Source: Saprospiraceae bacterium
GTDB lineage: Bacteria; Bacteroidota; Bacteroidia; Chitinophagales; Saprospiraceae
DNA length: 64,000 nt
Assembly (NCBI GenBank): GCA_030729925.1
Contig: JANQWK010000065.1
Span: 1 to 64,000, forward strand
Direction: 5' to 3'
The notes beneath the pieces are model-generated. The model did no database searches. It saw nothing but the letters and a program-made list of their open reading frames with translations, and was not told where the DNA came from. Made by a program: the position numbers and the translations under genes. Shown piece by piece: positions 3,664 through 63,141 of the stretch. Each line of letters begins with the position of its first letter. Positions within the stretch are counted from its first letter, which is position 1.

Positions 3664-3764
3664 TGGGTAAAGGGCTTGTGCAACTTTAAGAATGGGTATT
3701 AAACACTTTTGCAGCCCAGAGGTTGAGAAGCTTCAACACCTACAAAGGATTTATCCAAAAAAAA

Positions 3765-3802
3765 TTGCGGAAAACACCCACCTGTAGAGGCATTTTCCGC
3801 AA
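3765..3802 (-). terminator. Intrinsic terminator of the lrp-like gene
   Basis: A 10-bp perfect inverted repeat (TTGCGGAAAA / TTTTCCGCAA, 3765-3774 and 3793-3802) lies 23 bp past the stop of the minus-strand Lrp-type gene. Read on the minus strand the stem runs into eight consecutive T residues, as expected for Rho-independent termination. It also isolates the TonB receptor gene from lrp read-through. Confidence 0.75.
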
Positions 3803-3825
3803 TCCGTAGCAAGCGTAGGGCGCTG

Positions 3826-4299
3826 CTAATCATACCGATAAGGCAATAGCTTTGTATCTTTTACCGTAGATAAAGTCATTAAAGTCTTCAAGCGCTCAAT
3901 TTCCTCGATTTGTGACAAGGTCTTGAACAATAACTGCTCATACGTAGGAATATCCTTGCACACAATCTTCATCAGAAAATCAGCCTCTCCAGTGATGATA
4001 TAACACTCGGTTATCTCCTCGATAGACTTGATCTTCTCCAGAAAGTTATTCAGGGCATTCTCCTTCTGCCAAGCCAATGAAACCAATACAAAAGTCTTGA
4101 CGTTCAACCCAATCGTGGGGGGGTTCACATGTGCGTGGTAACTTTCAATAATGCCGCTCTGCTCCAGTTTTTTTACCCGCTCCAACGTAGGGGCTGGCGA
4201 AAGCCCAATGCGCTTGGAAAGATCCAGATTCGTGATTTTGCTATTCTCTTGCAGAATCTTCAGGATTTTGAGGTCAATTTTATCCAATTTTTCGCTCAT
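3826..4299 (-). CDS. Lrp/AsnC family transcriptional regulator
   Basis: The 157-residue protein has the full Lrp layout. An N-terminal winged helix-turn-helix opens LDKIDLKILKILQENSKI, continues with a recognition segment RIGLSPAPTLERVKKLEQSGII, and leads into a C-terminal RAM/ACT-like effector domain (about 65-150) with YIITGEADFLMKI. Such proteins bind amino acids, form octamers and control amino-acid metabolism. It lies 202 bp downstream of a glutamate dehydrogenase gene on the same strand, but a strong terminator separates them, so it has its own promoter in the A/T-rich 4300-4447 interval. Control of the adjacent dehydrogenase or of the genes at large is plausible but not shown. Confidence 0.93.
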   Translation of the reverse strand: MSEKLDKIDLKILKILQENSKITNLDLSKRIGLSPAPTLERVKKLEQSGIIESYHAHVNPPTIGLNVKTFVLVSLAWQKENALNNFLEKIKSIEEITECYIITGEADFLMKIVCKDIPTYEQLLFKTLSQIEEIERLKTLMTLSTVKDTKLLPYRYD

Positions 4300-13800: not shown

Positions 13801-14525
13801 TCAACAGCAACAGAAGGGGGTAAGGATTTTTCCTCCGCAAAAAAAGCGGGAAAAAAACCCAACACGCCCGCCGATAACAACTGGTTTGCTGCTTGGCCTG
13901 CGTCTGAAGTAAAGCGAAAGGGATGGGACACCAGACGCTCCAGTTCAACAGGAACTACCAGCCCTGGGATCCAAGTAGATAGCAGCTCATATAGCGCAGG
14001 AAGCCACAAATTTGCAGCCTCGCCGTTTTGCAGAAAAGCAGCCAATCTTCCAATATCTGCTCCCTCAAAGGAACGCAGCCATGCAGCAATAAATGGGTTT
14101 AAACGGGCACGCTTCCTGCCCTTGGACAGTATAACCCATTCTGAAAAAAATTCGGGATGCCGGTTTAGTTTCACCTCCCAGAGAAACACCGGTACGCTAA
14201 GTACCTGGTCAGGGCTCTCCACTATGCGTAGGATGGGAAACCCCAAAGCCAGAGTGCTTCTTCCTTCCCGGAAAAGCATGCTCTGCTGTTCATAGTACAA
14301 AGCCTCCATGGCTGAGAGATCGGGAGAACTCCCACTACAAGGCAACCAAGTCTCGCTCCCTCGCTGCAACCACTGCAACAATACCCCGGCATAAGAAAAC
14401 TCTGGTTTGCCCCTTAGCGCGGAAACATCCACGCAACCACCACGAGCAGGATACTGCTCGTAATACATCGGAGGGAAATCCCTCGAAAAAGAGTTGTTGT
14501 TATCTGCTTCCACCCTGAAATTCAT
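10806..14525 (-). CDS. DUF4011-type SF1 helicase-like protein with C-terminal nuclease-like domain
   Basis: This is a 1239-residue single-gene transcription unit. Residues about 75-230 resemble DUF4011 (short acidic lead-in, LALGFPIL, VPVFLWEV, RLNPFI). The helicase core starts with an intact Walker A GAVGTGKT (281-288). Later motifs are eroded: motif II is VLVDDAEAV instead of DEAx, motif III is GTTPLAALPG instead of GDxxQLPP, and the motif V region is RGVQADVLVIS instead of QGxExD. Motif VI is recognisable as LLASRTGQKV. Residues about 1140-1230 match the MTES_1575-like PD-(D/E)xK pattern (FDFALVI ... VVIHLDG ... SIYWLLDPDGACRRL), but the usual ExDG reads HLDG. Intact relatives of this layout occur in anti-phage systems such as Mokosh. 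Role here unknown. Confidence 0.75.
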   Translation of the reverse strand: MNFRVEADNNNSFSRDFPPMYYEQYPARGGCVDVSALRGKPEFSYAGVLLQWLQRGSETWLPCSGSSPDLSAMEALYYEQQSMLFREGRSTLALGFPILRIVESPDQVLSVPVFLWEVKLNRHPEFFSEWVILSKGRKRARLNPFIAAWLRSFEGADIGRLAAFLQNGEAANLWLPALYELLSTWIPGLVVPVELERLVSHPFRFTSDAGQAANQLLSAGVLGFFPAFFAEEKSLPPSVAVDNGIPRFTHTHRVFPLPADPSQQAVLDFVGEGTGQLEVSGAVGTGKTHTLVQLLWHALSMGKKVLVLSPSVSGLREIQQYLSDERLADLYAVLTDLGVDGDYFLSLLTKRGNDSFDTSRMESEADWKRASDGFHRLLDKLDRQYAAVRTKVFGELSWPELLGLFLQSSQIAGKDRMDAELTIPGFVFDDKQYHDLRRVVLTGEVLYSGMNVQVRHLAHLSPDIFLTKHKSDARAWVAHGLEKYKGRAIELRRALGDFSRDYTDALLGDFQDGYIRIKDQLELVAFVFRSAEQEFGTSWENAVNDGLFWKRFLGKRYAAMQESKASVIREWGKLVELVGESSLAHHGLPRAKLSRDIPEIKQLSKSFARSLREWGETIPRLAQDAAARLGAKTIREELHLLDPWENLERELSDLVEAMNGSGLFARVFEDVMLSLSRKGAFLDEIIGFIEGIVSEMSDFEAFFDWHRFWLGLPEDHQVVLKGLIRLRSSNWEESFKSWFFYQALLASGAADFPRQPSDFSSLAGHLENLRQQYPVQIARVWRDIRADRVKRTKRRFLSSRDKGAFAAGTSMDGSWFDTHFEAITALAPVLLFGSAAAEKLLPGLKQSFDLVLVDDAEAVASGLLPLLKTVGKQGVFFYGTTPLAALPGAGESMRLAICHRWPPGCMDLLVDTQTQISTEGVRGFEVQFVQVDGRFDALAGANETEAMQVVQLLNGFEETPQRTMPRVIIAALTKAQRNLIAAAIDRIKYSNLPGVERIRQLERNGLLVCAASDLRGVQADVLVISATVGPINIKGELPDDLSGWSVSLLEDIQLLASRTGQKVFVLNSIPETLLYPENLSLSFSYGLSGAYLLHYLAYLRVLGGHGADAQGEVIASLRKYLGYPEMGGRVEGAYAKRLYDRIASGLSLWIPRERIIRNFREAQFDFALVIHGADPSSPKVVIHLDGYWSEAAQTNMEWELQRTVSVSSYGYRIVSTFSIYWLLDPDGACRRLAAAIGES

Positions 14526-14727: not shown

Positions 14728-15465
14728 ATGTCTGTTAACATTGCCGTTATTCTGACCGATTCGAAAAAGCAAATTCTTTGGGTAAACGACGGATTTACCT
14801 TTATCACGGGATATACCCCCCGGGAAGCGATTGGAAACATTCCCGGAAAGTTACTTCAAGGACCGGAAAGCGAGTTTGAAGTGATCCAGCGAATGCGAAA
14901 AGCACTGGACGAGCACGTGCCCGTTCGGGAACAAATCAACAACTACCGCAAGAATGGGGAAATTTACCCCTGCAGACTGGTCATTTATCCCGTGTTTGAC
15001 CAGCAAAAGCAACTTACCAATTTTATTGCGTTCGAGGTAGATGGCGATGAGGTACCGGAAGATGCGCCAATTCCATTGTTGGACCTGAGTTTGAAATACA
15101 AAAACAGTGGGCTGAGTAAATTTGAAGGTACCCGGATTTACGAGGCGCTCGTTCAGTTGCTAGAACGGGAGAAAATTTACCTCGATCCCGATCTTTCGCT
15201 CAAGCAGACTGCCGACCGTCTGATGACCAACACCAAGTACTTGTCACAAGTCGTCAACCAGTTTACCGGTAACAATTTCCAGCAATTCGTCAACACGTAC
15301 CGCATAGAAGCGGTAAAAGCCAAAATTAACGACCCTCAATTCAAAAATCTCACCCTTTACGGTATTTCTCTCTATTGTGGATTCAAAAATAAATCCACGT
15401 TTTATAAGGTATTCAAGGAAATTACCGGCCTGACCCCCAAAGCTTTTATGGAGAAATACCGCTAG
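14728..15465 (+). CDS. PAS domain and AraC-type HTH regulator
   Basis: This soluble 245-residue one-component regulator has an N-terminal PAS domain (about 1-105) and a C-terminal AraC-like double HTH (about 145-245). The PAS core reads NDGFTFITGY followed by GNIPGKLLQGPES, which resembles LOV domains but lacks the flavin-linking cysteine of the GxNCRFLQ motif, so blue-light photochemistry is not expected. The HTH (EKIYLDPDLSLKQTADRL ... CGFKNKSTFYKVFKE) is the same type found in the four membrane regulators at 54-61 kb, including a KIYLDP-like lead-in. It is divergent from the helicase-like gene, with 202 bp between the starts. Ligand and targets are unknown. Confidence 0.88.
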   Translation: MSVNIAVILTDSKKQILWVNDGFTFITGYTPREAIGNIPGKLLQGPESEFEVIQRMRKALDEHVPVREQINNYRKNGEIYPCRLVIYPVFDQQKQLTNFIAFEVDGDEVPEDAPIPLLDLSLKYKNSGLSKFEGTRIYEALVQLLEREKIYLDPDLSLKQTADRLMTNTKYLSQVVNQFTGNNFQQFVNTYRIEAVKAKINDPQFKNLTLYGISLYCGFKNKSTFYKVFKEITGLTPKAFMEKYR

Positions 15466-49510: not shown

Positions 49511-51559
49511 ATGAAAGTACACCGCGACCTAAACCACATTCCGGCCTTCAAGAACGCTGTCATCACGATCGGATCATTCGACGGGGTGCACTTGGGCCAC
49601 AAGCGCATTTTGCGGAAGATTACCCAACTGGCTGCAGACATTGGAGGAGAAAGTGTTGCCATTACCTTCGATCCCCACCCCAGGCTGGTTGTCTATCCGC
49701 AGGCCAACGACCTTCAGCTGATTACCACCACGGAAGAAAAGATCCGGTTGATGGCTGATACGGGTATAGACCATCTGGTCGTCGTGCCCTTTACCATTGA
49801 ATTTTCGCAGCTCAATCCGGATGAATACATAGAAAAATTTATTGTCCGACATTTTAAGCCGGCCTATATCGTCATTGGGTATGACCATCGTTTTGGGAGT
49901 AACCGACAGGGGGACATCAACTACCTGAAATGGCATGGTAAGGCATCCGGTTATGATGTCATTGAAATATCCCGGCAGGAAGTGGACGATATTGGGATTA
50001 GTTCTACGAGGATCCGGTTGGCGCTGGCCGCCTGTGATATTCCGAAGGCCAACAAACTATTGGGGCACCATTACAGCATTACGGGAAGGGTCGTTCCAGG
50101 CGACAGGATAGGCAACCAACTTGGATTCCCGACCGCCAATCTGCAATTGGACAGTCCACATAAGCTCATCCCGCCGGACGGGATTTATGCTTGTTTGGTT
50201 TGCCACGACCACCAACACTACCGGGGGATGCTGTATATCGGTAAGCGCCCAAGTATCCGCGATGGCGGCAACAAGGTTATTGAGGTCAATATATTCGATT
50301 TCAACCAGCAGATTTATGGCGACCTGTTGCGGGTAGAGCTCATTGAGCACCTGCGCAAAGACATGACCTTTCCTTCTTTGGAAGCCTTGAAAATTCAACT
50401 TAACAAAGACAGAGAAACCACCCGGGAAGTATTTGAATATCGGTCGAGGCAGGCAGAAGAAGTGGCTGTCCTACCGGAAAAACCTTTCAGCGCTTCGGTA
50501 GTATTGCTCAACTTCAACGGGCTCAAGCACCTGCGGGAATTCCTGCCCAGGGTACTTGAAACGCTGCCTCCGGAAGTTCCCCTTGTGGTTGCAGACAATG
50601 GCTCGACAGACAAATCCGTTGCTTTTTTGCAACAGCACTACCCCGACATTCGGTTGATTGAATTGGGGCATAACTATGGTTTTGCCAAGGGCTACAACCT
50701 GGCCTTGCACCATTTGGACGACGATTGTTACGTGCTCCTCAACAGTGACATTGAGCCTTCCGAAAACTGGCTCAGTCCATTGTTGGAAGCCATGCAGGAC
50801 AATCCCCGGCTGGCAGCCTGTCAGCCCAAAATAAAATCCCTCAAAAACCCGGCCTTATTTGAATACGCCGGGGCAGCGGGGGGGTGGATAGATGTATTGG
50901 GCTACCCCTTTTGTCGGGGCAGGATCTTTGACCACTGCGAAGCCGACGAGGGGCAATACGAAGACACCACAGAGATATTCTGGGCAAGTGGCGCTGCCAT
51001 GTGTGTGCGGGGCAGTTTGTTTCAGGAAGTAGGCGGATTTGACCCGGATTACTTTGCTCATTCGGAAGAAATAGACCTTTGCTGGCGCCTCAAACGAGCG
51101 GGGTATCGCATAGAAGTCGTGCCAAATTCGGTGGTCTATCACCTCGGCGGGGGCACGCTCAACTATCAAAGTCCTTTCAAGACCTATCTCAACTTCCGCA
51201 ACAGTCTGTACAGCCTTGTCAAAAACGAAGCCTTTTTCCGATTGATCTGGATTTTGCCGCTTCGACTCGTGCTAGACGGGGTAGCCGGCCTTTTGTTCCT
51301 CTCGCAGGGCAAATGGCCGCACATCAAAGCCATCATTGACGCACACTGGACTTTTTTTCCGCGTTTGCCCAAATTGTGGCAGCAGCGGCAGGTCCTTCGC
51401 GCCAAAATCAGACAAATCAGGCAGAACGAGGCACCGAACCTTTCCACAGGAAGATATTCACGAAGCATCGTATGGGATTATTACGTGCGCGGAAGAAAAC
51501 AATTTTCACAACTAACCACAAAAAAAGCGCAACAAACCCAAGCCTATGAAAAAGCCTGA
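49511..51559 (+). CDS. ribF: RibF (riboflavin kinase/FAD synthetase) fused in frame to a family 2 glycosyltransferase
   Basis: Residues 1-302 are a complete RibF, which turns riboflavin into FMN and FAD: adenylyltransferase motifs GSFDGVHLGH (21-30), DPHP, and ISSTRIR (163-169), then riboflavin kinase with GDRIGNQLGFPTAN (197-210), PPDGIYA, and the closing LRKDMTF. A polar linker (303-326) leads without a stop into a GT2 domain: SVVLLNFNGLKHLREF (329-344), ADNGSTD (361-367), LNSDIEP (410-416) and SEEIDLCWRLKRAGY, with a membrane-proximal helix near the end. No ATG lies at the junction; a GTG at 50462 is the only candidate internal start. The RluA gene overlaps the end by 14 bp. Confidence 0.9.
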   Translation: MKVHRDLNHIPAFKNAVITIGSFDGVHLGHKRILRKITQLAADIGGESVAITFDPHPRLVVYPQANDLQLITTTEEKIRLMADTGIDHLVVVPFTIEFSQLNPDEYIEKFIVRHFKPAYIVIGYDHRFGSNRQGDINYLKWHGKASGYDVIEISRQEVDDIGISSTRIRLALAACDIPKANKLLGHHYSITGRVVPGDRIGNQLGFPTANLQLDSPHKLIPPDGIYACLVCHDHQHYRGMLYIGKRPSIRDGGNKVIEVNIFDFNQQIYGDLLRVELIEHLRKDMTFPSLEALKIQLNKDRETTREVFEYRSRQAEEVAVLPEKPFSASVVLLNFNGLKHLREFLPRVLETLPPEVPLVVADNGSTDKSVAFLQQHYPDIRLIELGHNYGFAKGYNLALHHLDDDCYVLLNSDIEPSENWLSPLLEAMQDNPRLAACQPKIKSLKNPALFEYAGAAGGWIDVLGYPFCRGRIFDHCEADEGQYEDTTEIFWASGAAMCVRGSLFQEVGGFDPDYFAHSEEIDLCWRLKRAGYRIEVVPNSVVYHLGGGTLNYQSPFKTYLNFRNSLYSLVKNEAFFRLIWILPLRLVLDGVAGLLFLSQGKWPHIKAIIDAHWTFFPRLPKLWQQRQVLRAKIRQIRQNEAPNLSTGRYSRSIVWDYYVRGRKQFSQLTTKKAQQTQAYEKA

Positions 51560-52297: not shown

Positions 52298-53980
52298 ATG
52301 AAGAACAACGCAATACGCCCCTATCTGATCATTGCCGCGCTTGCGGGTATCTTCTTTCTACCCTGGCTGGGAGGGGTGCATCTCTTTGACTGGGACGAAA
52401 TCAACTTTGCCGAAATTGCCCGGGAGATGGTTATTTCGGGCAACTACACGGGAGTGACCATTGACTTTCAGCCATTTTACCAAAAACCGCCCCTGTTTTT
52501 TTGGTTACAAGCGGCCGCCATGCACCTGTTTGGCATTGGAGAATATGCATCGAGATTTCCCAATGCCATTGCGGGCATCATAACGTTGCTTTTGCTTTAC
52601 CATTTGGGAAAAAAGCACTTTGACGCGCTCACGGGCTGGTTGTGGGCGGGAGCCTATTTTGGATCGGTACTGCCTTTTTTATACTTCAAATCGGGGATCA
52701 TAGATCCGGTATTCAACCTCTTCATCTTTTTGGGTTTGTACGCCCTGATTCGTTTCCACTGGCAAAAATCGGGGATGCTCCCTGGCGGGAAAAACAACAC
52801 CTGGCTGCTTTGGGGCGGGTTATCAGTCGGGCTGGCCATATTGACCAAGGGGCCGGTGGCTTTTCTGATTATTGGATTGGTATTGGGTGTCTATTGGATC
52901 TATCAGCGCTTTAGGATGTACATCAACATACCGGAGTTTTTAGGTTTTTCGCTGGCGGCAGCGGGTGTCACCCTCACTTGGTTTGGGATAGAGACCTTGG
53001 CCAATGGCTCTGAATTTGTTGTGGAATTTACCCGATATCAGTACCGACTGCTGTCCACTCCGGATGCGGGTCACAAGGGATTCCCGCTATACCATGCGGT
53101 GGTATTGCTGGTTGGCTGTTTTCCGGCATCCCTGTTTATCTTTCCTTCATTTCGAAAATCCTTTGCAAAGGAACTCCCTAAACATCAAGCTGACCTCATC
53201 CGCTGGATGAAAATCCTGTTTTGGGTAGTATTGATCCTCTTTTCCATTGTGCAATCCAAGATTGTACACTACTCATCATTAGCTTACTTCCCTTTAACCC
53301 TCCTTGCGGCAGTAGTCATCCGGAAAATTATCCGGGAGCAATCGGCCATCCCCAAGGGATTGCGAGTGGGTTTGACAGGAATAGCAACCCTGTATATGAT
53401 TGTCATTACGGGAGTTGCGCTATTGGGCAAGCGGGGTACCGAAGCCTTGGCACCCTATATTTCCGACCCCTTTGCCGTGGCCAACCTCGCTGCGGAAGTA
53501 CGCTGGTCGGGTTGGGAATGGACGCCTGCACTGTGGCTATTGGTGGTGCTCCTTGTTTTTTTCCGGTTTACCGGAGCAGGTCGGCACTTGGCTGCCTTCC
53601 GATGGCTCTTCCTGTCCACTGCCCTATTTACCCTCATTACCCTTGTCTTTTTTGTCAGGCGCATCGAAGGCTATTCGCAACGAGCTGCCCTGGAATACTT
53701 CTCTCAGCTTGCCGGGGAGGACTGTTACCTTCAGCCAGTAGGCTATAAAAGCTATGCCCACTTGTTTTATGGAGAGGCAATGCCTGGCAAACGGTCGGAA
53801 GCCAGGGATCAGGAATGGCTGCTCACCAGTCCGGATTTGGACAAAACCGCCTATTTTATCACCAAGGTTCACAAAACGAAAGACTTAGCTCCCTATCCCG
53901 AGCTGGAAAAGGTGGGAGAAAAAAACGGATTTGTACTGTTTAGGAGGAAAGCTCACACAAAAAACCTCGGAAAAACATAG
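52298..53980 (+). CDS. GT39-family (ArnT/PMT-like) membrane glycosyltransferase
   Basis: The 560-residue integral membrane protein has about eleven to twelve TM helices and the GT-C signature near its N-terminus, LFDWDEINFAEIAREM with the catalytic acidic residues (DWDE), followed by QPFYQKPPLFFWLQAAAMHL and YASRFPNAIAGI. These match ArnT/PMT-type enzymes, which move sugars such as aminoarabinose or mannose from polyprenyl phosphate to lipid A or protein. The acceptor is unknown. It closes the RibF-GT2/RluA unit. The polyprenyl-phosphate donor may be made by GT2 enzymes such as those at 1 and 49511. Confidence 0.9.
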   Translation: MKNNAIRPYLIIAALAGIFFLPWLGGVHLFDWDEINFAEIAREMVISGNYTGVTIDFQPFYQKPPLFFWLQAAAMHLFGIGEYASRFPNAIAGIITLLLLYHLGKKHFDALTGWLWAGAYFGSVLPFLYFKSGIIDPVFNLFIFLGLYALIRFHWQKSGMLPGGKNNTWLLWGGLSVGLAILTKGPVAFLIIGLVLGVYWIYQRFRMYINIPEFLGFSLAAAGVTLTWFGIETLANGSEFVVEFTRYQYRLLSTPDAGHKGFPLYHAVVLLVGCFPASLFIFPSFRKSFAKELPKHQADLIRWMKILFWVVLILFSIVQSKIVHYSSLAYFPLTLLAAVVIRKIIREQSAIPKGLRVGLTGIATLYMIVITGVALLGKRGTEALAPYISDPFAVANLAAEVRWSGWEWTPALWLLVVLLVFFRFTGAGRHLAAFRWLFLSTALFTLITLVFFVRRIEGYSQRAALEYFSQLAGEDCYLQPVGYKSYAHLFYGEAMPGKRSEARDQEWLLTSPDLDKTAYFITKVHKTKDLAPYPELEKVGEKNGFVLFRRKAHTKNLGKT

Positions 53981-54030: not shown

Positions 54031-55836
54031 ATGGCATTTTTTCGTGTAAGCTCAAGGATGTTATTTCCTTGTTTGGTATTGCTCCTTGGCTGCCAAGTCA
54101 ATCAGCAATCCTCAGATGAAGATGTGCGACGATCTTTAGATACGCTCAAAGTCAAAATAGCAACGCTTACAACCAGTAACCTGGATTCAGCCCTTCACTA
54201 CAGTAACCTTGCCATTCGGTTCATACAAGACAATCAACTTGGCAACAACGAGCTACTATATCTACAACTGCGTCGAAGTGAGCTGTTCGACCAGATGGGT
54301 TTACGCGATTCTGCGGAACAGACCATCGCTATAACCGAAGTCTTGTTACAATCGCAGGAGGATCCCTACCAAAAAGCGATAATGAATTTTTGCAAAGGCA
54401 TCCATTTGTTTGCTGCCGATCAATACCAGGATGCGGAGATTTACCTCCAGGAAGCCGGAGCCTATTTTTTGCAAAACCCTAAGGAGCCCAAAGCGGGAAA
54501 AGTATTCCAAGAGCTGGCTAATTTTTATACCAAAACAGGGCAATTGACCAGGGCACATGACTTTTTATTGAAAGCTGCTGCTCATTTTTCCAGCATTCGG
54601 GATGCTGATGGGGTTCTGGCTGCCAACATCCAGCTTGCGACCATTTTCAGACAACAGGAACTACAGGCGGAACTTTCGGGTCTTCTGGAAGAGATACTAT
54701 CTTCGCTGCAACAAACCGGGGCAGCAACAATTACCTACACCCAGTTGCAGCAATTGGGCTTTGCCGCAGCGGAAGCCCTCCCTGACTCGGCCTTGGCTTG
54801 GCAGCAAGTAGCCGCCCGGGAAGCCCTTCAGGCCGGGGACACTGTCAGTTATTACCTTTCTCTGACCCATATCAACGCGATTGTCCCGGATCAAAACAAA
54901 CTGGAAGAAGCTGCCGCTTACTTTGACAAGACAGATCACCCATCTCATTTTATACTGGCATCCAGTAACTTAGGTAAGCTGTTGCTCGAAAAAAACGAGC
55001 TGGATAGCGCTAAAAGCTGGTTAGACCGGGCGCTGGAACACGCCACAGCGTTGGAGAATCCGGTTGAACAGATTCCTGTATTGACTGCGTTGCAACAATG
55101 GTACCTCAGAGCTGGCAAAAAAGAGCTATTTGGAAAAACCCAAGACAACATTCAAGACCTCAAGCAGGACTTAGCTCAAAAAAACGCAGCCACTACGCTG
55201 GAATTTTTAGAAAAAGCACAGTTGCTGGAGCAAGTTAACCATCAGAAAACCCTGCTTGCGACCAAACTGGAGCAACAGCAACGAAAAATCAGGTTTAGAA
55301 ATGGCTTAATCCTGGCAATGGGCTTGGGTGTATTCATCCTGGGCATCGGAGCTCAAAAAGTTTACCAGGCGGCGCAGCGCAAAAAAATAGCCATGCAGGT
55401 ATTATTGGAGTCTTACAAAACAGAACTCCTGCATTTGACCACTGCCCGGAAAAGCGAGCCACAAACTACCAAACCTGGAGGTGCTGAATTAAAAAAGAAA
55501 TTGCTGGTGTTATTTGAGCAGAGAAAGATCTTCCTTCAGCCAGGACTTAAGGTGGAAGAGGTTACGGAAGAACTTGGAATCTCCTACAAAGACTTCAACC
55601 AGCTCCTTAAAGAAGAATACGGCACCAATTTCAAAAATTTCATCAACGCTTTCCGGGTTGACCATGCCAAGAGCCTGTTGTTGGACCCAAACTATCAACA
55701 CCTCACCGTTGAGGGTGTAGGACTTGAATCCGGATTTGGAACCAAACAAAGTTTTTACACGGTTTTTCAGCAAGCACTGGGAGTTAGCCCTGGGGAATAT
55801 AAAGACATCATTCAGCACAAAACCCAGGCATCGTGA
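54031..55836 (+). CDS. Membrane-anchored TPR-like sensor with AraC-type HTH (array gene 1)
   Basis: The first of four paralogues. A lipobox-like signal (LFPCLVLLLGC, Cys about 22) precedes a helical TPR-like region (about 35-390; LDSALHYSNLAIRFIQDNQL is a typical helix pair). A single TM helix (about 422-442) leads into a coiled linker and a C-terminal AraC-type HTH (about 488-590; KIFLQPGLKVEEVTEELGIS, then GFGTKQSFYTVFQQ). Predicted topology: TPR domain outside, HTH in the cytoplasm, so a one-piece transmembrane regulator. What it senses is unknown. Its stop overlaps the GTG start of the next gene by 4 bp. A 50-bp gap separates it from the GT39 gene. Confidence 0.85.
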   Translation: MAFFRVSSRMLFPCLVLLLGCQVNQQSSDEDVRRSLDTLKVKIATLTTSNLDSALHYSNLAIRFIQDNQLGNNELLYLQLRRSELFDQMGLRDSAEQTIAITEVLLQSQEDPYQKAIMNFCKGIHLFAADQYQDAEIYLQEAGAYFLQNPKEPKAGKVFQELANFYTKTGQLTRAHDFLLKAAAHFSSIRDADGVLAANIQLATIFRQQELQAELSGLLEEILSSLQQTGAATITYTQLQQLGFAAAEALPDSALAWQQVAAREALQAGDTVSYYLSLTHINAIVPDQNKLEEAAAYFDKTDHPSHFILASSNLGKLLLEKNELDSAKSWLDRALEHATALENPVEQIPVLTALQQWYLRAGKKELFGKTQDNIQDLKQDLAQKNAATTLEFLEKAQLLEQVNHQKTLLATKLEQQQRKIRFRNGLILAMGLGVFILGIGAQKVYQAAQRKKIAMQVLLESYKTELLHLTTARKSEPQTTKPGGAELKKKLLVLFEQRKIFLQPGLKVEEVTEELGISYKDFNQLLKEEYGTNFKNFINAFRVDHAKSLLLDPNYQHLTVEGVGLESGFGTKQSFYTVFQQALGVSPGEYKDIIQHKTQAS

Positions 55837-57683
55837 ATAATTTGCTTCAACTACCGCGATCCGGCATCTATTGGTTTTGGTTCATTTTCCTGAGCTGGTT
55901 TTGTGCAACTTGTAGCCTGTCCACTGAAAATTTAATCCCGGAAAAGGCATCTCCCTTACCTGCTTCATTGGTAGCCGAGTACCTTCAAGCCAGGGAAACC
56001 AATGTTGATGCTGCCTTGACTTACGCTGATTCCATTATCAACTACATCGAAAAAAACCAACTTCCTGACTCCCTGCACATATATTACCTTTTTGAAAAAG
56101 CAGAGGCCTTGGTTAAAGCAGGAAGGCAAAAAGAAGCACTGAATTTTTTCCTGGAGGGAAACCTCCTCGCCAGTTTGAGCCAGGACAGCACCCAGATGGC
56201 TTTGGCCGCATTACAGCTGGGCAATTATTACAACATCATTTATCAACCCTCGCTTGCTTTACCTTACACCACTCAAGCTGCTCAGTACTACAAAAACTAT
56301 CCTTCCAGCCCGGAAACCGCCAAAACCCTCAGTAATTTAGGCAGAGCCTATTTAGAAGACGGCAACAGTTACAAAGCCCTTGAATTGTTCAACCAGGTAG
56401 CCCAAATTCATGAGTCGAATAAGGACAGCCTTAATATAGCCTATAACCTCTCTGATATTGGGTACGCTTTGATCCAGCTCCAACAGGAAGAAGCGGGACT
56501 CGATGCAACCCGAAGAGGGATCCAGATCGTCGAAGCTTTAAAAAATGCCCCGGATGTGGGGATGACGCTTAGCAATCTGGCCTTGAACTACCGGAATTTT
56601 CATCCGGATACCGCCATCCTGTACCAGCAAAAGGCCATGGAGCTTACCTTGGAACTTGGAGATTCGCTCAACTGGATAGCCTCAAAATTCAATTTCGGAA
56701 ATGTACTTTATGAGTTCGAAAACTACCCTGATGCCAAGCGAGTTTACCAAGAAGTACTTGCATTTTGTCAGGAAAAACAAATTGATCATGGTGTCATGCT
56801 GTCCTTCAACGCCTTGGGGACTTTACACCACAAAACAGGACAACAACAAGAGGCCATTTCGTTGCTGCAAAAAGCGAATCGCATGATTACTGAGAATAGC
56901 GGTTCTACCGCCATCCTCATCCAGAACCTTCAAAGCATTGGAATGGCCCAGCGAGCACTGGGCAATATCGAGTCGGCTCAAACCATCGAATGGAAAGTAG
57001 ATAGTCTTCAACGGCAATCGAAATCGCAACAAATCCAAAGCAGCCTGGAATACCTGGAACAAAATATGGAAGTAGGGCAGGCATTATTTAACCAACAAAT
57101 GCTGGAAAAGCAAAGCGCTGAAGCAAAAGCCCAACTCATCCGACGCAATGTTATCCTTGGACTGATTTTAAGTTTTGTTATTGCAGGTCTTCTGCTCTGG
57201 TATCGGTGGCGGGTTGAATATCAATCGGGGCAACAAGCCATCAACCGACTCCTTAACAAATACGCAAGAGAACTCGAGAAAGAAAAATCAAACGAATCCA
57301 ACCCGCCGGTGGAAGTTCACTATGCCAAACTTTCACAAGAATTGGTTAACCTCCTCGAAATCGAAAAAATCTACCTTCAATCCAATTTAAAAACCGAGGA
57401 TGTACAAGAGCGCCTCCAGATCTCCTACAAAGACCTCAATCACATCCTGAAGTCTCAATTCCAAACCAGTTTCCCCAATTTGGTCAACCAATATCGCATA
57501 AAAACGGCACAACAGCTGTTGGCAGACCCCGACCATGCCAATTTATCCATGGACGAAATTGCGATTCTCTCCGGCTTCGGCACTCGACAAAATTTTTATA
57601 AAACCTTTCAGTTGATTGCGGGAGTGAGTCCGGGCAGCTTTAGGGCCTATTTTCAGGAAAATTGGCCCCAACATTCTGGATAA
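55833..57683 (+). CDS. Membrane-anchored TPR sensor with AraC-type HTH (array gene 2)
   Basis: GTG start 55833 sits in a GTGA overlap with the preceding stop. The 616-residue protein opens with a hydrophobic export segment (WFWFIFLSWFCATC), then clear TPR repeats (about 70-400; for instance LSNLGRAYLEDGNSYKALEL and AYNLSDIGYALIQLQQEEAG). A TM helix (about 436-456) is followed by a coiled linker and the HTH (about 505-610; KIYLQSNLKTEDVQERLQIS, SGFGTRQNFYKTFQ). Of the four it has the most regular TPRs, suggesting a peptide- or protein-binding groove outside the membrane. Same predicted topology and coupling as gene 1. Confidence 0.88.
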   Translation: MNNLLQLPRSGIYWFWFIFLSWFCATCSLSTENLIPEKASPLPASLVAEYLQARETNVDAALTYADSIINYIEKNQLPDSLHIYYLFEKAEALVKAGRQKEALNFFLEGNLLASLSQDSTQMALAALQLGNYYNIIYQPSLALPYTTQAAQYYKNYPSSPETAKTLSNLGRAYLEDGNSYKALELFNQVAQIHESNKDSLNIAYNLSDIGYALIQLQQEEAGLDATRRGIQIVEALKNAPDVGMTLSNLALNYRNFHPDTAILYQQKAMELTLELGDSLNWIASKFNFGNVLYEFENYPDAKRVYQEVLAFCQEKQIDHGVMLSFNALGTLHHKTGQQQEAISLLQKANRMITENSGSTAILIQNLQSIGMAQRALGNIESAQTIEWKVDSLQRQSKSQQIQSSLEYLEQNMEVGQALFNQQMLEKQSAEAKAQLIRRNVILGLILSFVIAGLLLWYRWRVEYQSGQQAINRLLNKYARELEKEKSNESNPPVEVHYAKLSQELVNLLEIEKIYLQSNLKTEDVQERLQISYKDLNHILKSQFQTSFPNLVNQYRIKTAQQLLADPDHANLSMDEIAILSGFGTRQNFYKTFQLIAGVSPGSFRAYFQENWPQHSG

Positions 57684-57736
57684 GTTACATAATGGATCAT
57701 GCTTCTGGAAAGTGGAGAAAATTAAATTAAGTTAAA

Positions 57737-59203
57737 ATGCCAAATCAACTCCTCGGATTACTTTTTTTCATCCTTCTACCCTTTCGTGGTGAAGCAGCAT
57801 TCCAGCAAAAACCCGATGAAAACCGGGGCGAAACTCAACAGCACCCGTTGGATCCCGAGGTCTGTGGATTGTCGTCCGCATTTTCACAGACAGAAGCAGC
57901 TCAATACCTTTATGCCCTGGATTGTTTGCAGCGCGCGTTTGATAGGTTCCAAACCGCTAAGGATAGTGCAAGTATGGCTGCAGCAATTGCCAATACGGCG
58001 TATATTCTCAAAGCACTTCAGGGTGACAATCAGGTTCAGGACTTTTACAACCAAGCCTTATCGCTTCTCCCCGAACACCCCCTACAAGATGTCCCACTTT
58101 CAACTTGGTTTCACCTGGCCGCTGTTGCAGATACCTTGCCCCGAGGTCAATATTTTCGCGACGCAGGCATGCAGTTCGCAACCCAGCAGAAGGATACCTT
58201 TTTTCTGGCTCGATTTCTTCACCTCCAGGGAGTAGCCGCCCTTGACAATAAAGACATCGGCGGAGCAGACACCCTGATGCAACAAGGCCTCCTATTGGCA
58301 CGTGCCAGTTTGGACACCATGCTCATGGGAAAAATTGCGGCTAACCTCGCCTCCATTGCCCTGCAACAAAACAATATTTCTGAAGGGCGCAGCTATCTAA
58401 ACATCTGCCGGAACTTATATGGCAGTAAGCCCATACTGGCTGTCCAACCGGATGTTCTACAAGCAGAACTACAATTTTATCAGGCTGTTGGCGACCGTCA
58501 AAACAGCAAAATTATCGCAGAAAAAATAGACAGTTTCGCCATCCAGTTGAAAAAAGATCAATTTCAGGCTATCATGGATCTTTCAACCAATGCAAGGGTT
58601 CAAGCTACCCTAAGTTGGGAAAATAATTTATTAGAGGCCCAATTGTTGGCACAAAAAAAACGCCAGTTGCTGCGCTATGCTGTCTTGGGCTGCCTTTTGG
58701 TTTGTACTTTGACGCTGTACCGTATTCTCTCCAAGTTTTTGCAGGCCAATAAAGAAAGACAACAAACACTTCAGGTTTTATTTGATCAATATCGAGAAGA
58801 ATACCTGGTATCGCTTCAGCAGCATGAACCAGCAATCCAGCAGCCGCAGAACGCTCCCCTTGAAAACGCACTATATAAACTATTTACAGAAAAAAAAATC
58901 TACCTGGATCCTACGCTCAAAGTCAACCAGGTTGCCAAGGAGCTTGGCATCGGATATGACACGCTCAATCAATTGCTGAAAGACACCCAAAAAGGCAATT
59001 TCAACCAAATGGTCAATGGGTTTCGCATCGAACACGCCAAAAACCTATTGTCCGATACCGGGCAAGAACATTTAACCATAGAAGGCGTGGCGCTCAGTTC
59101 GGGCTTTGGAAGCAAGCAACAATTTTACAACACATTTCAGCAATTCGTAGGCATAAAACCCAATGAATTCAGGAAATTTATGCATAATAATAAGGGATCG
59201 TAA
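57737..59203 (+). CDS. Membrane-anchored TPR-like sensor with AraC-type HTH (array gene 3)
   Basis: The shortest of the four (488 residues). An export signal (LLGLLFFILLPFRGEA) is followed by a reduced TPR-like helical region (about 50-300), a TM helix (about 312-332; LRYAVLGCLLVCTLTLY), a linker and the HTH (about 375-480; KIYLDPTLKVNQVAKELGIG, SGFGSKQQFYNTFQQ). The lipobox cysteine of genes 1 and 4 is missing. It starts 53 bp after gene 2 and ends 16 bp before gene 4. Divergence outside the HTH suggests that each paralogue recognises a different signal while DNA targets may be shared. Confidence 0.85.
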   Translation: MPNQLLGLLFFILLPFRGEAAFQQKPDENRGETQQHPLDPEVCGLSSAFSQTEAAQYLYALDCLQRAFDRFQTAKDSASMAAAIANTAYILKALQGDNQVQDFYNQALSLLPEHPLQDVPLSTWFHLAAVADTLPRGQYFRDAGMQFATQQKDTFFLARFLHLQGVAALDNKDIGGADTLMQQGLLLARASLDTMLMGKIAANLASIALQQNNISEGRSYLNICRNLYGSKPILAVQPDVLQAELQFYQAVGDRQNSKIIAEKIDSFAIQLKKDQFQAIMDLSTNARVQATLSWENNLLEAQLLAQKKRQLLRYAVLGCLLVCTLTLYRILSKFLQANKERQQTLQVLFDQYREEYLVSLQQHEPAIQQPQNAPLENALYKLFTEKKIYLDPTLKVNQVAKELGIGYDTLNQLLKDTQKGNFNQMVNGFRIEHAKNLLSDTGQEHLTIEGVALSSGFGSKQQFYNTFQQFVGIKPNEFRKFMHNNKGS

Positions 59204-59219
59204 ATTAAGCAATATACCT

Positions 59220-61079
59220 ATGGATACTTTCCAGGAGTACGCTGCCGTACAGCAATTTCCAAACCCCAAATTCCAATGGGCACACGCTGGTCTAATTTCC
59301 GGAAGCCGCTTCAGTCGCTTTGCTATAAAATATTGGGTTTACACTGGATTACTGGGGTGGTTGTTGGGGTTAAGTGCTTGTCAAGCCGGCCCTGAACATC
59401 CACAATATTACCCCTTGGAAACCGATACCCCAAACTGGGACTCGCTGTTGGTCTTTACTGACTCTATGCTCTACAAAACAGATCCCGGTCAGATACCCCC
59501 TGGCAAACAAATAGAATTGCACCTGCTTCGGGCGGCCTGTCTAACCCCATCTGGGGATAACGATAAAAGGCTCCAAAGCTTGCTGGAGGCAAAACTAATT
59601 ACAGCCGGGATGGATTCGCCCTACGAAAAGGCCCTGACAGATTACGAGCTGGCCAACTTTTTCATCGCCAGCTATTTACCGGCCCTTGGCATCCCCTACG
59701 CCGAAAACGCCTATGCATTTTTTCAGGAAAACCAGAAATACGCTGAATTTGGGAAGGTAGCGCAAAAACTGGGACAAAGTTCCATGATAACCGATAAATT
59801 TGCGCAGTCCGTTTTTTATTTTGAACAAGCCATTGACTTTTATAAATCCCAACAGGATACGATTTTAACCGTCTCGGTGCTGATGGATTTGGGTTTTGCC
59901 CAAATCAAAATGGATCAATTGGAGGCCGCAAAACAGACCTCCCAAAAAGCACTCCTCTTGATGCAGCAAAACTCCAAACCGGAACTATTTGCCGCAGAAT
60001 ATACCAACCTCGCTGTCAACTACAGATACTTTGATCCGGATTCGGCAATTGCCCTCCTCGAGCACGCCATGAACCTATCGGTACCTTTTCAAGACTCCAT
60101 GAATATCATTATTTCAAAGTACAATCTCGCTAATTCGCTCGTAGATACTAAGCGATTCGCCACAGCAAGCTCGATTTACGATGAAGTAGAAGATTACTGT
60201 AAGCGCAACAAGGTTGCGATAGGAATTCCACTCGTTTTAATTGGAAAAGGAAATATCCTCTTTCAGCAACAGCAATACTCTGCATCCATAGAACGGTACA
60301 CCCAGGGGCTGGAAATTTTCGATCAAATGGGAACAACTTCCTTCAACAAAGGCACCTATCCCTATCTTGATGAAGCTTATCTCCAAATAGGTCAGCCGCA
60401 AAAAGCACAAGAGATACGCAACAAACTGGAGCAAGTCGAGCAGCAAGAACGAGATCAACAACTGGCTGCCATCGTGGAATTGAACCAAAAAGCAGCAGCC
60501 ATAGAAGGGGAACTGTTCAAAAAGCAAACCTTACAAACCCAAGAAAGCGCCTTACAAGTCAGGAATAAGTCCTACCAAATCATTTTCGCCATCCTAATTC
60601 TTTTCTCTATGCTTGCATCCACCATCACCTGGCAACGCCTTCGCGTTCAAAAATCCAGGAATAGTGCGGTGATGGCAATCCTCGAAAAATACAAAACTCC
60701 AACACTCCCAGAAAAAACCGACCCGGATTCGTCGCTGGTCAACGCCCTTTTGGAGCTTTTTGAGCAGCAAGCAATTTTTCTGGATCCGACGCTGAAGGTA
60801 GAATCCGTAATCCAGCAACTGAATACAGACTATCCGACCCTTAATCATTTGCTAAAAAGTCATTTTTATTCAAACTTCCCTTCTTTTGTGAACCACTATC
60901 GAACAAGCTATGCCCAGGCATTACTCCTCAATAGCGAATATCCAGCGCTTACCCTGGAACAAATCGCAGCAAAATCCGGATTCGGAACCAGACAAGCTTT
61001 TTACAATGCTTTTCAAAAAAGATATGGAGTTACACCTGGGCAAATGAGAGCAGCTATGCACAGCACAAACCCCATCTAA
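59220..61079 (+). CDS. Membrane-anchored TPR sensor with AraC-type HTH (array gene 4)
   Basis: ATG 59220 is taken because it follows the gene 3 stop; in-frame upstream codons overlap gene 3. The 619-residue product has an unusually long polar lead (about 38 residues) before the hydrophobic segment YTGLLGWLLGLSAC, whose cysteine looks like a lipobox. TPRs (about 100-420; SVLMDLGFAQIKMDQLEAAK) precede a TM helix (about 450-470) and the HTH (about 515-615; IFLDPTLKVESVIQQLNTD, SGFGTRQAFYNAFQ). Its ordering matches gene 2 most closely. It ends the array; a 383-bp structured gap follows. Confidence 0.87.
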   Translation: MDTFQEYAAVQQFPNPKFQWAHAGLISGSRFSRFAIKYWVYTGLLGWLLGLSACQAGPEHPQYYPLETDTPNWDSLLVFTDSMLYKTDPGQIPPGKQIELHLLRAACLTPSGDNDKRLQSLLEAKLITAGMDSPYEKALTDYELANFFIASYLPALGIPYAENAYAFFQENQKYAEFGKVAQKLGQSSMITDKFAQSVFYFEQAIDFYKSQQDTILTVSVLMDLGFAQIKMDQLEAAKQTSQKALLLMQQNSKPELFAAEYTNLAVNYRYFDPDSAIALLEHAMNLSVPFQDSMNIIISKYNLANSLVDTKRFATASSIYDEVEDYCKRNKVAIGIPLVLIGKGNILFQQQQYSASIERYTQGLEIFDQMGTTSFNKGTYPYLDEAYLQIGQPQKAQEIRNKLEQVEQQERDQQLAAIVELNQKAAAIEGELFKKQTLQTQESALQVRNKSYQIIFAILILFSMLASTITWQRLRVQKSRNSAVMAILEKYKTPTLPEKTDPDSSLVNALLELFEQQAIFLDPTLKVESVIQQLNTDYPTLNHLLKSHFYSNFPSFVNHYRTSYAQALLLNSEYPALTLEQIAAKSGFGTRQAFYNAFQKRYGVTPGQMRAAMHSTNPI

Positions 61080-61462
61080 GCCATCCATTTGCACCAAACC
61101 CCTTCAATGAATTGAAAAAAAGGCAAATACCTCGTGTAATCTTTTTTTTTACACGTGAAAAAACTTTGACTTTAATGCCAAAATGTACAAATATGCCACA
61201 TCGCAATTAACTGAAAATCAACAATGTAAATATTTTTTGGTCAAAAATCCAAAAAACTGGACGTATCCGATTTGTTACATCCCGAATATAGCCTCATATT
61301 TGACCTGAGGCTAATATTTTTATTTGATTATGCGAACGTTTTGAGAGGCGTCCGTTTCCGGGTGTAAATTACGGCATGGTTTGTGCGGTTGTCACGAGGG
61401 GTTACTGCTCCTCGTGACGGCACCCTTTTCTGGAACAGATTGCCAACCAAAACTAAGGAATC
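61080..61462. other. 383-bp intergenic region with three inverted repeats
   Basis: No gene found. In order it holds: CGTGTAA/TTACACG (61133-61139 and 61149-61155) around a T-run, possibly the terminator of the regulator array; GCCTCA/TGAGGC (61291-61296 and 61306-61311) followed by an A/T-rich TAATATTTTTATTT; and a 9-bp hairpin at 61390-61417. A promoter and a long leader for the gene at 61463 are expected here. These palindromes could also be binding sites for the adjacent HTH proteins. Confidence 0.6.
61390..61417 (+). promoter_or_regulatory. Leader hairpin upstream of the DUF4402-like gene
   Basis: GTCACGAGG (61390-61398) and CCTCGTGAC (61409-61417) form a perfect 9-bp stem with a 10-nt loop, 45 bp before the ATG at 61463. 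No T-run follows, so it is not a terminator. It could be a leader-RNA structure or a DNA operator. Confidence 0.45.
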
Positions 61463-61954
61463 ATGATGTTTGCCATTCCAAGGCACAACAGCCTGCAAGT
61501 GTATGACAATGCTCAAGATGCTATTTTCTATGAGCGTACCGATCTGACGGTATATCAGATACAAGATTTGCAAATAGACTCGCTGGTATTGGGTCCCAAA
61601 GGAGGAACATTTGCGTTATTACCCAATGGAAAAACCAGTTTCACCGGAGATATCAAAATGCGCGGAAAGCGACATTTCCCAGCGATTTTTGAGCTTACGA
61701 GCCACAAACGTTCTGAGGTAACTGTGATCTTACCCAAAAACACGCCCCATCCTTGGCAACATTTGTCTAATACAATAGACATAAAGTGGGAATGGGTGAA
61801 TTGTTGGAACAGCAACCGTTTTTCGATCCGGTCGTCCGGACGGAAAAACACCTTGGTTGAGGTCGGAATCAGATTTCATGTGAATACCTACGGAAAACAG
61901 GTGCTTACAGAGCCTGTTAGTCTTCCGTTTGACATACAAGCTATGCAGGATTAA
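61463..61954 (+). CDS. DUF4402-like protein without visible signal peptide
   Basis: The 163-residue product is mostly beta-strand. The central part follows the DUF4402 pattern: DSLVLGPKGGTFALLPNG, then TGDIKMRGKRHFPAIFEL and a VTVILP strand. DUF4402 proteins are normally exported, with a signal peptide, and some form surface structures. Here the start (MMFAIPRHNSLQVY) is polar and no signal is evident, so either the true start lies upstream in a non-ATG frame, export uses another route, or the protein is cytoplasmic. It has a strong terminator behind it and lies alone between the regulator array and the hydrolase. Confidence 0.6.
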   Translation: MMFAIPRHNSLQVYDNAQDAIFYERTDLTVYQIQDLQIDSLVLGPKGGTFALLPNGKTSFTGDIKMRGKRHFPAIFELTSHKRSEVTVILPKNTPHPWQHLSNTIDIKWEWVNCWNSNRFSIRSSGRKNTLVEVGIRFHVNTYGKQVLTEPVSLPFDIQAMQD

Positions 61955-61980
61955 TTTCCTGTAATTGAATTTACACTGCC

Positions 61981-62040
61981 GAGGGGGCACATCCTTTCTC
62001 ACTGCATTCAATCGCCCTAATGCACCGCCCCCTCTTTTTT
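61981..62040 (+). terminator. Strong two-tier intrinsic terminator
   Basis: An outer stem GAGGGGGC (61981-61988) with GCCCCCTC (62027-62034) encloses an inner stem TGCATT/AATGCA (62003-62008 and 62019-62024) and runs directly into TTTTTT. It ends the transcript of the DUF4402-like gene, 26 bp past its stop. Confidence 0.8.
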
Positions 62041-62056
62041 AGTCCTTCCCAAATTT

Positions 62057-62130
62057 AGGTTACCTTTTTAGAACTGGAGGTATTAATAGAGGTATTCTAG
62101 GTGCAAGTCACCTTAAGGTGCCTTGCACCT
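62057..62130 (+). repeat. Intergenic repeat element, copy 2
   Basis: The element reads AGGTTACCTTTTT (62057-62069), 9 variable bases, GGTATTAATA, a variable stretch, and a 32-bp palindrome with one mismatch (62099-62130). It matches the minus-strand copy at 16605-16677 in order and spacing. It lies past the terminator of the upstream gene, so it is not part of that terminator, and about 105 bp before the hydrolase gene. Confidence 0.8.
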
Positions 62131-62235
62131 GTGCTTTAAAATATTGGTAATCTATATTTTAGTATAAAATTTATCCGTATTTTCCCCCCGTAATCGCCCC
62201 AATGGCTACACCAAACACCATATAACCCAATTGAC

Positions 62236-63141
62236 ATGAAAATTTTTCGGGTGCTTTTGTTTTTGCCTGTTTTAATCCTTTTCCTTGCCTTTTTTTACCG
62301 GGGACCGGTGAAGACATTTGATCAACTTTACCCCCATTCAGATACCTTAAAAGCGGCTTTTGAGCAGTTTCGCGCTTTGCCTTTGCAACAAATCGAACAC
62401 GGAGGCCACGATTGGCCGTACCTGGCTCTGGGCAAGGGAAACGAGACGGTTCTTTTACTCCATGGCATGGGGGGATCTTATGATATCTGGTGGCAACAGA
62501 TAACAGCCTTGCAGGATAGTTATCGCATCATCGCCCCAACTTATCCGCCGGTGAGTACCATGGAGGCGCTGGCAGCGGGGATCATTGCGATCCTTGATCA
62601 GGAAAACATCTCGGAGGTACATCTCGTGGGATCGTCGTTAGGCGGTGACCTGGCGCAATATTTGGCGGCGTATTACCCTGAGCGGGTAAAGAGTGCCCTT
62701 TTTGGCAACACCTTTGTAGCTGATACGGACTTTAAAGCCGTTGTAACGCCCATGTTTGCTCCCTTGCGATGGGCACCGGAGTGGCTCATTCGTTATCAAT
62801 TCCGAAAAGGAATTTTGGCGCAGCACTATCCCGCATCGGGACAATCGGAATTTTTACGGGCTTACTTACTCGAGCAAGGCTACGGGGCGATGGGAGTAGA
62901 TCAATTTCGCAACCGCGCCTGGTGTGTGCTGGATATTTATGAGAAGCGGCTGAGCAAAGACATACCCCTGCAGATCATCGAATCGGATAATGATCCTTTG
63001 GTGCCCGAAAAATTTCGCGAACAACTCAAAGCCACCTACCCTGGTGCCGGGGTTTACACCTTTTCCGGAGCCGGTCATTTTCCTTATCTGAGTCACCCGG
63101 ATACCTACAACCAAATCCTGCTGGATCACCTTAGAAGGTAA
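62236..63141 (+). CDS. Alpha/beta hydrolase, membrane-anchored or exported
   Basis: The 301-residue protein starts with a signal/anchor helix (IFRVLLFLPVLILFLAFFY). The hydrolase fold shows the oxyanion region LLLHGMGGSYDIWW, the nucleophile elbow VGSSLGGDLAQYL (Ser about 136), an acid in IIESDNDPLVPE and the catalytic histidine in FSGAGHFPYLSHP, so a full Ser-Asp-His triad is likely. Substrate is not inferable; esterase, lipase or haloalkane-type activity are options. It has its own promoter region behind repeat copy 2 and ends at a shared bidirectional terminator. Confidence 0.9.
   Translation: MKIFRVLLFLPVLILFLAFFYRGPVKTFDQLYPHSDTLKAAFEQFRALPLQQIEHGGHDWPYLALGKGNETVLLLHGMGGSYDIWWQQITALQDSYRIIAPTYPPVSTMEALAAGIIAILDQENISEVHLVGSSLGGDLAQYLAAYYPERVKSALFGNTFVADTDFKAVVTPMFAPLRWAPEWLIRYQFRKGILAQHYPASGQSEFLRAYLLEQGYGAMGVDQFRNRAWCVLDIYEKRLSKDIPLQIIESDNDPLVPEKFREQLKATYPGAGVYTFSGAGHFPYLSHPDTYNQILLDHLRR

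Follow-up and report, generated by a model that had tools for sequence, protein, structure and literature searches.

A window of 64,000 nucleotides, comprising positions 1 to 64,000 of contig JANQWK010000065.1 from a Saprospiraceae bacterium (assembly GCA_030729925.1), holds four consecutive forward-strand genes (T1 to T4, 54031-61079) whose products share one layout, with an N-terminal sensor part followed by a transmembrane-like (TM-like) segment and a C-terminal AraC-type helix-turn-helix (HTH) domain. T1 (54031-55836; 601 aa) carries its TM-like segment at residues 426-444 and its HTH at 513-591; T2 (55833-57683; 616 aa, with a GTG start) at 439-457 and 526-605; T3 (57737-59203; 488 aa), the sensor of which is shortened, at 314-332 and 400-480; and T4 (59220-61079; 619 aa, its mechanical open reading frame [ORF] opening further upstream, at 59163) at 454-472, followed by an AraC domain at 505-614. 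The four ORFs are collinear and intact, T1 and T2 overlapping by 4 bp (GTGA), with 53 bp between T2 and T3 and 16 bp between T3 and T4.

A Pfam scan found PF12833 (HTH_18) above its curated cut-off in all four proteins (51.6-59.7 bits vs 33.6), whereas tetratricopeptide repeat (TPR) models exceeded their cut-offs in T2 and T4 only, T1 falling slightly below and T3 giving no TPR match up to an E-value of 0.01; the label TPR-like is firm for two of the four proteins, T2 and T4. No kinase or receiver family was listed for any of them up to the same E-value in the domain scan, so that each joins a TM segment and an AraC HTH in one chain free of phosphotransfer domains, the combination that defines membrane-bound one-component AraC regulators. 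In a Kyte-Doolittle scan with a threshold of 1.2, each protein displayed a single strong internal segment of hydrophobic residues, immediately ahead of the HTH (mean 1.73-2.21), and T4 a second, weaker one within its sensor (332-350; 1.33). Export was judged by hydrophobicity, the N-terminal segments of T1, T2 and T3 scoring 1.67, 1.47 and 1.48, while the export signal of T4 (...TGLLGWLLGLSAC, after an N-terminus of about 40 residues) was read by eye and is the weakest of the four; the lipobox-like motifs LLGC in T1 and LSAC in T4 are likewise by-eye readings. A first-pass annotation, made from the letters of the window, had described four tandem regulators with an export signal or lipobox, a helical TPR-like domain, one TM helix and an AraC-type HTH. 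The consecutive genes, their overlap and gaps and the HTH were all borne out; the helical domain was recovered at Pfam level in T2 and T4 and not in T1 or T3, the export signal in T1 to T3 with T4 under threshold, and the single TM helix in all four as the segment before the HTH, with the qualification that T4 holds the weaker second one.

The architecture was examined further in an AlphaFold model, made for T4 alone among the four and built from 22 aligned sequences (mean predicted local distance difference test [pLDDT] score 84.4, predicted template-modelling score [pTM] 0.58). The model consists of TPR helices at residues 73-389, a continuous helix of about 99 residues (393-491) that spans the TM-like segment, and the AraC domain, with pLDDT below 50 at residues 1-31 and 55-69 and in the linker 495-503; structure prediction, which had been proposed as a check on the layout, returned the solenoid, the long helix that contains the TM-like segment, and the DNA-binding domain. 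Structural comparison matched the solenoid to LGN (4wnd; Z 27.6, 316 aligned residues, root-mean-square deviation [rmsd] 5.6), NprR (5dbk; Z 24.2, 339 aligned, rmsd 5.1) and Rap (4gyo; Z 24.2, 331 aligned, rmsd 5.3), all of them peptide-binding TPR structures.

The four proteins are alike behind the membrane segment and divergent ahead of it, as had been noticed in the first pass, pairwise identity being 31-44% in the post-TM parts vs 19-28% in the pre-TM parts. Against 200 shuffles, pre-TM similarity reached z-scores of 10.6 for T1/T2, 10.3 for T1/T4 and 21.3 for T2/T4, and 2.7-4.3 for the pairs that include T3. A pair of array-like genes is also present in a metagenome-assembled genome (MAG) of the same genus (G001, hereafter the congener), where copy A, truncated at the start of its contig, is followed after 2 bp by copy B. 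In a full-length tree with 12 outgroup proteins, taken from 24 others in hand and also used for the sensor tree, T1 to T4 together with A and B formed one clade (support 100/100), within which T1, T3 and A (type a) and T2, T4 and B (type b) each grouped with 99/98 (99/97 in another run). The approximately unbiased (AU) test rejected a clade of T1 and T2 (p = 0.0059), a clade of T3 and T4 (p = 0.0011) and T1 to T4 as a single clade (p = 3.6e-5). The sensor parts on their own gave 97/95 for type b and 90/85 for type a; the tree of the HTH parts was weaker (a 95/94, b 50/71) after two long rows, G0_C49 and L068, had been dropped, T4 finding no resolved place in the 30-row tree that included them. 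Because T1 and T3, and likewise T2 and T4, are sister types, while the clades of adjacent genes are rejected, the gene order a-b-a-b is best read from these trees as the duplication of a two-gene a-b unit, rather than gene-by-gene amplification. The spacing fits two alternating types, being tight within pairs (4-bp overlap, 16 bp, and 2 bp in the congener) vs 53 bp between pairs. The proposal that one signalling gene had been amplified with diversification of its sensor is therefore retained as to common descent, the six array proteins being closer to each other than to the outgroup families, and amended as to the duplicated element.

The age of the duplication is less clear. The full-length tree joins A to T3 (87/73) and B to T4 (94/90), and the sensor tree likewise joins the congener pair to T3-T4; since the congener pair nests with one window pair in the best trees, the duplication would predate the split of the two species. 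The HTH-part tree instead joins A to T1 (80/68) and B to T2 (89/79), and the AU test leaves room for a later duplication (p = 0.245 and 0.10). Exchange between array copies is possible, and the tree program warned of long branches for T3 and A. Protein identities between window and congener are 36% for T3/A, 33% for T1/A, 32% for T4/B and 30% for T2/B. The gene upstream of the array (52298-53980) has just a partial match of 27% in the congener, where the equivalent of the array's left end lies off the contig, placing the left flank outside the comparison. Upstream stretches of T1 and T3 were compared as a further sign of pair duplication and set aside, 148 of 1000 shuffles scoring as high.

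The layout itself is not unique, as three further genes carry it in the same genome and single copies are scattered in Bacteroidota. Among the 12 HTH_18 matches of this genome (3.74 Mb, 104 contigs), seven have the TPR-TM-HTH layout, namely the array and the single genes C7, C45 and C49, which qualifies the first description of the layout as rare; four others fall in frames of 1220-1440 aa, the size of hybrid kinases, and a small PAS-AraC protein of different layout is encoded at 14728-15465 of the window. Array-like matches (E < 1e-70) occurred in only 2 of 60 relatives' genomes, counting this one, the second being the congener, in which no further array copies were found (assembly 88% complete). 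A C-terminal profile searched against 395 Bacteroidia genomes, for which mostly eight candidates per genome were scored, reached E < 1e-50, among the matches listed, only in this genome and in G284, the contig of which is also the source of L063, one of the query sequences; other long-frame matches were mixed, many having no TM segment before the HTH. A full-length profile run on 395 Bacteroidia genomes was not used for counts, as other TPR proteins dominated its results and three candidates were scored per genome. Among the matches listed, no second run of at least three full-length genes of this layout appeared, which does not prove absence; the best 60 of 82 hits in a sequence search of the PDB were TPR designs and AraC domains, none with the array layout, and no open-licence paper among the matches listed treated TPR-TM-AraC regulators or connected them with exported proteins, and the accessible parts of PMC10434189 and PMC1183210 did not mention this layout.

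Behind T4, a gap of 383 bp separates the array from the next gene, and within it begins a stretch of DNA (61205-61481, forward strand) that aligns with positions 3594-3876 of the congener contig L043 at 74.7% identity over 292 columns (blastn/alignment). It is non-coding as far as 61462 and then includes 19 bases of the next gene; a separate search gave 79% identity over 185 bases. Across 199 genomes of the family, 25 had matches to the non-coding block at E <= 0.01, consisting of pieces of at most about 51 bases beyond this genome and the congener, and elsewhere in its own genome the block returned only short matches (E >= 0.258). Inside the regulator genes, DNA-level matches with the congener were only two and short (48 and 83 bases). 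Because non-coding DNA is conserved at 61205-61470, the 60-62 kb region, which the first-pass annotation had put forward for DNA-binding tests, gains support on comparative grounds, and the search for regulator targets should be centred on 61.2-61.5 kb; 53.9-54.0 kb, the other region put forward, showed no promoter-like site with the patterns used.

Promoters of Bacteroidota follow a -33/-7 consensus that includes TANNTTTG. A promoter-like site, TTTG-N20-CATATTTG, lies at 61271-61302 on the forward strand and in the corresponding place of the congener; it was found with the pattern TTTG-N17-23-[TC]A-N2-TTTG, loosened by one base from TANNTTTG after the sequence had been read, the strict form having no match in the regions scanned. 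An A+T-rich repeat, GTAA..TTTTT, recurs at a spacing of 90 bp in one species and 91 bp in the other and might be a candidate operator. Further on, a block of 37 nt (61320-61356, forward strand) shows zero differences between the two species, and a 15-bp hairpin (61388-61421, forward strand) is present in the congener too; aligned by eye on the CACGAG/CTCGTG arms common to both species, it has four outer pairs changed on both sides with pairing kept. The hairpin fragments fold at -27.8 and -20.6 kcal/mol. Within the 37-nt block, both species have a mini-ORF in which four codons precede the stop (ATG CGA ACG TTT TGA, 61330-61344 of the window). These features admit another explanation, namely that 61205-61430 serves chiefly as a small RNA gene or as an attenuator or terminator rather than a region bound by the regulators. 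The promoter-like site, the invariant block and the hairpin kept despite its changed pairs would agree with that idea, as would the fold of the whole leader (z -2.19, 5 of 200 shuffles being as low). Nevertheless, an Rfam search of 61000-62300 gave five matches, all under their gathering scores and taken as chance; only four T residues in the window, or five in the congener, follow the hairpin, past a short gap, making a poor terminator; and conservation starts some 66 bp ahead of the promoter-like site, which leaves room for operators. We consider the RNA explanation improbable, though worth keeping in mind, and prefer a regulator-binding region with a structured leader.

The gene that follows (61463-61954, forward strand) encodes a protein of 163 aa, 36% identical in the congener, with a DUF4402-like Pfam match marginally under cut-off (24.7 vs 25.2 bits) and none in the congener protein; no export signal was seen in either species, and an AlphaFold model was all-beta and of low confidence (pLDDT 35.9). 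Gene order in the congener is that of the window, the regulators being followed by the DUF4402-like gene, an alpha/beta-hydrolase and a protein of the type IX secretion system (T9SS) type; the two latter are 66% and 84% identical between the species, protein values that stand on a different scale from the DNA identity of the control region.

Single-copy relatives of the array proteins suggest what such regulators might control. Sixteen close relatives were selected (profile E < 1e-50, at least 470 aa), with the array locus L043 and the repeat loci L184 and L187-L189 excluded, and their neighbours were scored by asking that the next called gene (at least 100 aa) share the strand, lie no more than 900 bp away, look exported and reach 400 aa or more. 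This held for 9 of the 16, compared with 52 of the 488 remaining called genes of these loci, 75 of which had no next gene (Fisher p = 1.8e-5, a value that is indicative, as the rule was set after the loci had been viewed, the relatives are non-independent and the export test is crude). In Pfam scans of five of the nine downstream proteins, in whole or in part, SprB repeats (L053), a cadherin-like domain (L057), Invasin_D3 with Ig_7 (L058), Laminin_G_3 with Ig_7 (L062) and Ig_7 (L065) were identified, and an ORF of the congener genome (L044) matched HYR_4C. The record behind L065 is labelled Candidatus Planktophila (Actinomycetota), yet its regulator groups with those of Bacteroidota, perhaps through a binning error. 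In the genome of the window, the single genes C7 and C45 stand before exported-looking ORFs that are cut by contig ends and match HYR_4C under cut-off. As single relatives often directly precede long exported ORFs, activation of the next-door gene is suggested.

Other arrangements were seen around related regulators. HTH-only ORFs of the same AraC subfamily, counted apart, occur in L050 (5272-5673) and L052 (3454-3855), in both cases between a membrane regulator and an exported ORF, and in L064 (1999-2316, directly before an exported ORF with NHL repeats and a T9SS tail); for two of the three, the exported ORF that follows reaches 400 aa or more. Tandem pairs of AraC proteins with multiple TM segments in place of a TPR sensor (typically 386 and 385 aa) were found in eight loci (L067, L070, L071, L072, L074, L075, L081 and L082), mostly from Cytophagaceae MAGs. 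Directly after each pair comes an exported-looking ORF, 717 aa long in the shortest case and at least 2623 aa in the longest; in L082 a shorter HTH ORF, the third of the run, precedes the pair, and Pfam gave no match to a 771-aa portion of the ORF in L070. In five loci from a more distant set of regulators (L175, L177, L178, L182 and L186), an AraC HTH protein roughly 600 aa long and lacking a TM peak is encoded 96-196 bp ahead of an oxidoreductase-like gene.

Regulation of genes far from the array is another alternative to be weighed, in which the proteins would act mainly on distant targets, such as exported proteins encoded elsewhere, and the conserved region would reflect an unrelated control of the DUF4402-like gene. 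The adjacent gene is indeed atypical as a target, its product being short and apparently not exported, and C7 and C45 offer exported-looking candidates elsewhere in the genome. The DUF4402-like gene (2 of 199 genomes of the family) and the array-like regulators (2 of 60) are, on the other hand, confined to the same two genomes, in the same order, and both diverge fast whereas the two genes beyond do not. For these reasons we regard mainly distant targets as possible but doubtful, and the adjacent gene as the better candidate.

Several known systems resemble the array in part. In Saccharophagus degradans, 16 of 31 AraC-type regulators are membrane-bound and 13 of those 16 are paralogs, according to the accessible portion of PMC2386152; they resemble the array in membrane attachment, in lineage-specific duplication and in lying, in several cases, near genes that they possibly control, and differ from it in belonging to another phylum and in having enzymes of cellulose degradation as neighbours, that portion mentioning neither TPR sensors nor alternating pairs. 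SusR-like regulators of Bacteroides likewise combine a periplasmic sensor with a cytoplasmic DNA-binding domain and activate nearby operons, although PMC3878776 describes the DNA-binding domain of SusR as not significantly similar to that of any other known factor, and the targets serve glycan use, whereas the array has an AraC-type domain with a different sensor and different targets. Hybrid two-component systems (HTCS) of Bacteroides also join sensor, membrane passage and AraC-type domain in one chain, and their tethered AraC domains require a means of staying off, a question that applies equally to the array (PMC11253607). The array proteins nevertheless fall outside the HTCS, with neither a histidine kinase nor a receiver domain listed. 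RRNPP peptide sensors have a cytoplasmic TPR sensor with an N-terminal XRE-type HTH; in their structures, they and Rap share the general shape of the TPR solenoid with the array proteins, the TPR part of which appears to be exported and the HTH of which is C-terminal and AraC-type, so that the array does not belong with them. TIGR04094 (adjacent_YSIRK in NCBIfam) denotes by its name an AraC-type regulator beside a surface-protein gene, which follows the same genetic logic; T1, T2 and T3 scored 29.1, 34.7 and 30.3 bits against it, in the HTH region only and far from the cut-off of 200, and T4 was not listed up to an E-value of 0.01, leaving all four outside that family. Going by domain content, the array would be placed among membrane-bound one-component regulators, a known class, as a new variation on it.

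Taken together, we propose that T1 to T4 are two copies of a two-gene unit of membrane-tethered one-component activators of the adjacent gene. Export of each protein would stop at its internal TM helix, leaving a TPR-type sensor in the periplasm and the AraC domain in the cytoplasm; a peptide or protein ligand may bind in the solenoid and alter a dimer through the long helix that leads from the sensor across the membrane in the direction of the AraC domain, and the change so transmitted would control DNA binding, carrying the signal to a promoter without phosphotransfer. The most likely target would be the DUF4402-like gene at 61463-61954, controlled through 61205-61470 with its promoter-like site and structured leader. 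Since types a and b are tightly coupled in spacing, they probably act together, possibly as a heteromer, an option raised in the first-pass annotation along with possible shared DNA targets.

Various observations weigh against this proposal. The N-terminus of T4 lies below the hydrophobicity threshold, T1 has positive residues on both flanks of its TM segment, by which the charge rule leaves its topology unsettled, and the sensor of T3 is about 110-130 aa shorter, part of it having been lost. The TPR fold match does not identify the ligand, and tree regions conflict over which window pair the congener copies join. Conservation of the non-coding DNA rests on a single species comparison, and a segment between the DUF4402-like and hydrolase genes (61972-62040) is also conserved, at 84% over 70 columns. 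The presumed target, short and with no export signal, is unlike the proteins next to the single relatives. Among these relatives, seven of the 16 fail the neighbour rule (L050, L051, L052, L054, L055, L060 and L061: three for want of an export signal, two by strand, one with another regulator next to it and one with a short exported protein); contig ends truncate many ORFs, with eight of the nine long downstream ones running off their locus, and only 8 of 31 mixed regulators in a more distant set had a qualifying neighbour. As the N-terminal segment of T4 is weak, the tree regions disagree and rules were set after the data had been seen, we hold the proposal as a whole at about even confidence. 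A neutral or decaying tandem duplication, in which T3 above all would be degenerating and no labour would be divided between a and b, would suit the curtailed T3 sensor with no Pfam TPR match, the strong divergence of the copies and the discordant congener pairing, but is the least probable of the readings, given four intact frames and HTH domains and an a-b order with tight spacing that recurs in the congener.

Elsewhere in the window, a single ORF at 49511-51559 fuses RibF (FAD synthetase and riboflavin kinase domains) to a GT2-type glycosyltransferase, and a minus-strand ORF of 1239 aa at 10806-14525 has no Pfam match at an E-value of 1e-5.

A more far-reaching version, which we offer as speculation and think unlikely in its full form, is that a and b constitute an obligate heteromeric activator acting on the conserved block, and that tethered AraC activators, often paired and located before a gene for a long exported protein, are a general control device of Bacteroidota for adhesin-like proteins; in that case, sensors and a DUF4402-like product diverging fast around a well-kept control region would point to sensors that co-evolve with a variable partner. 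If one-chain tethered switches do stand before genes for long exported proteins, the loci described here would provide named regulator-target pairs that can be tested singly in Bacteroidota, and the duplicated a-b unit would offer a naturally occurring example of paired regulators in which the sensors change rapidly and the likely control region changes little.

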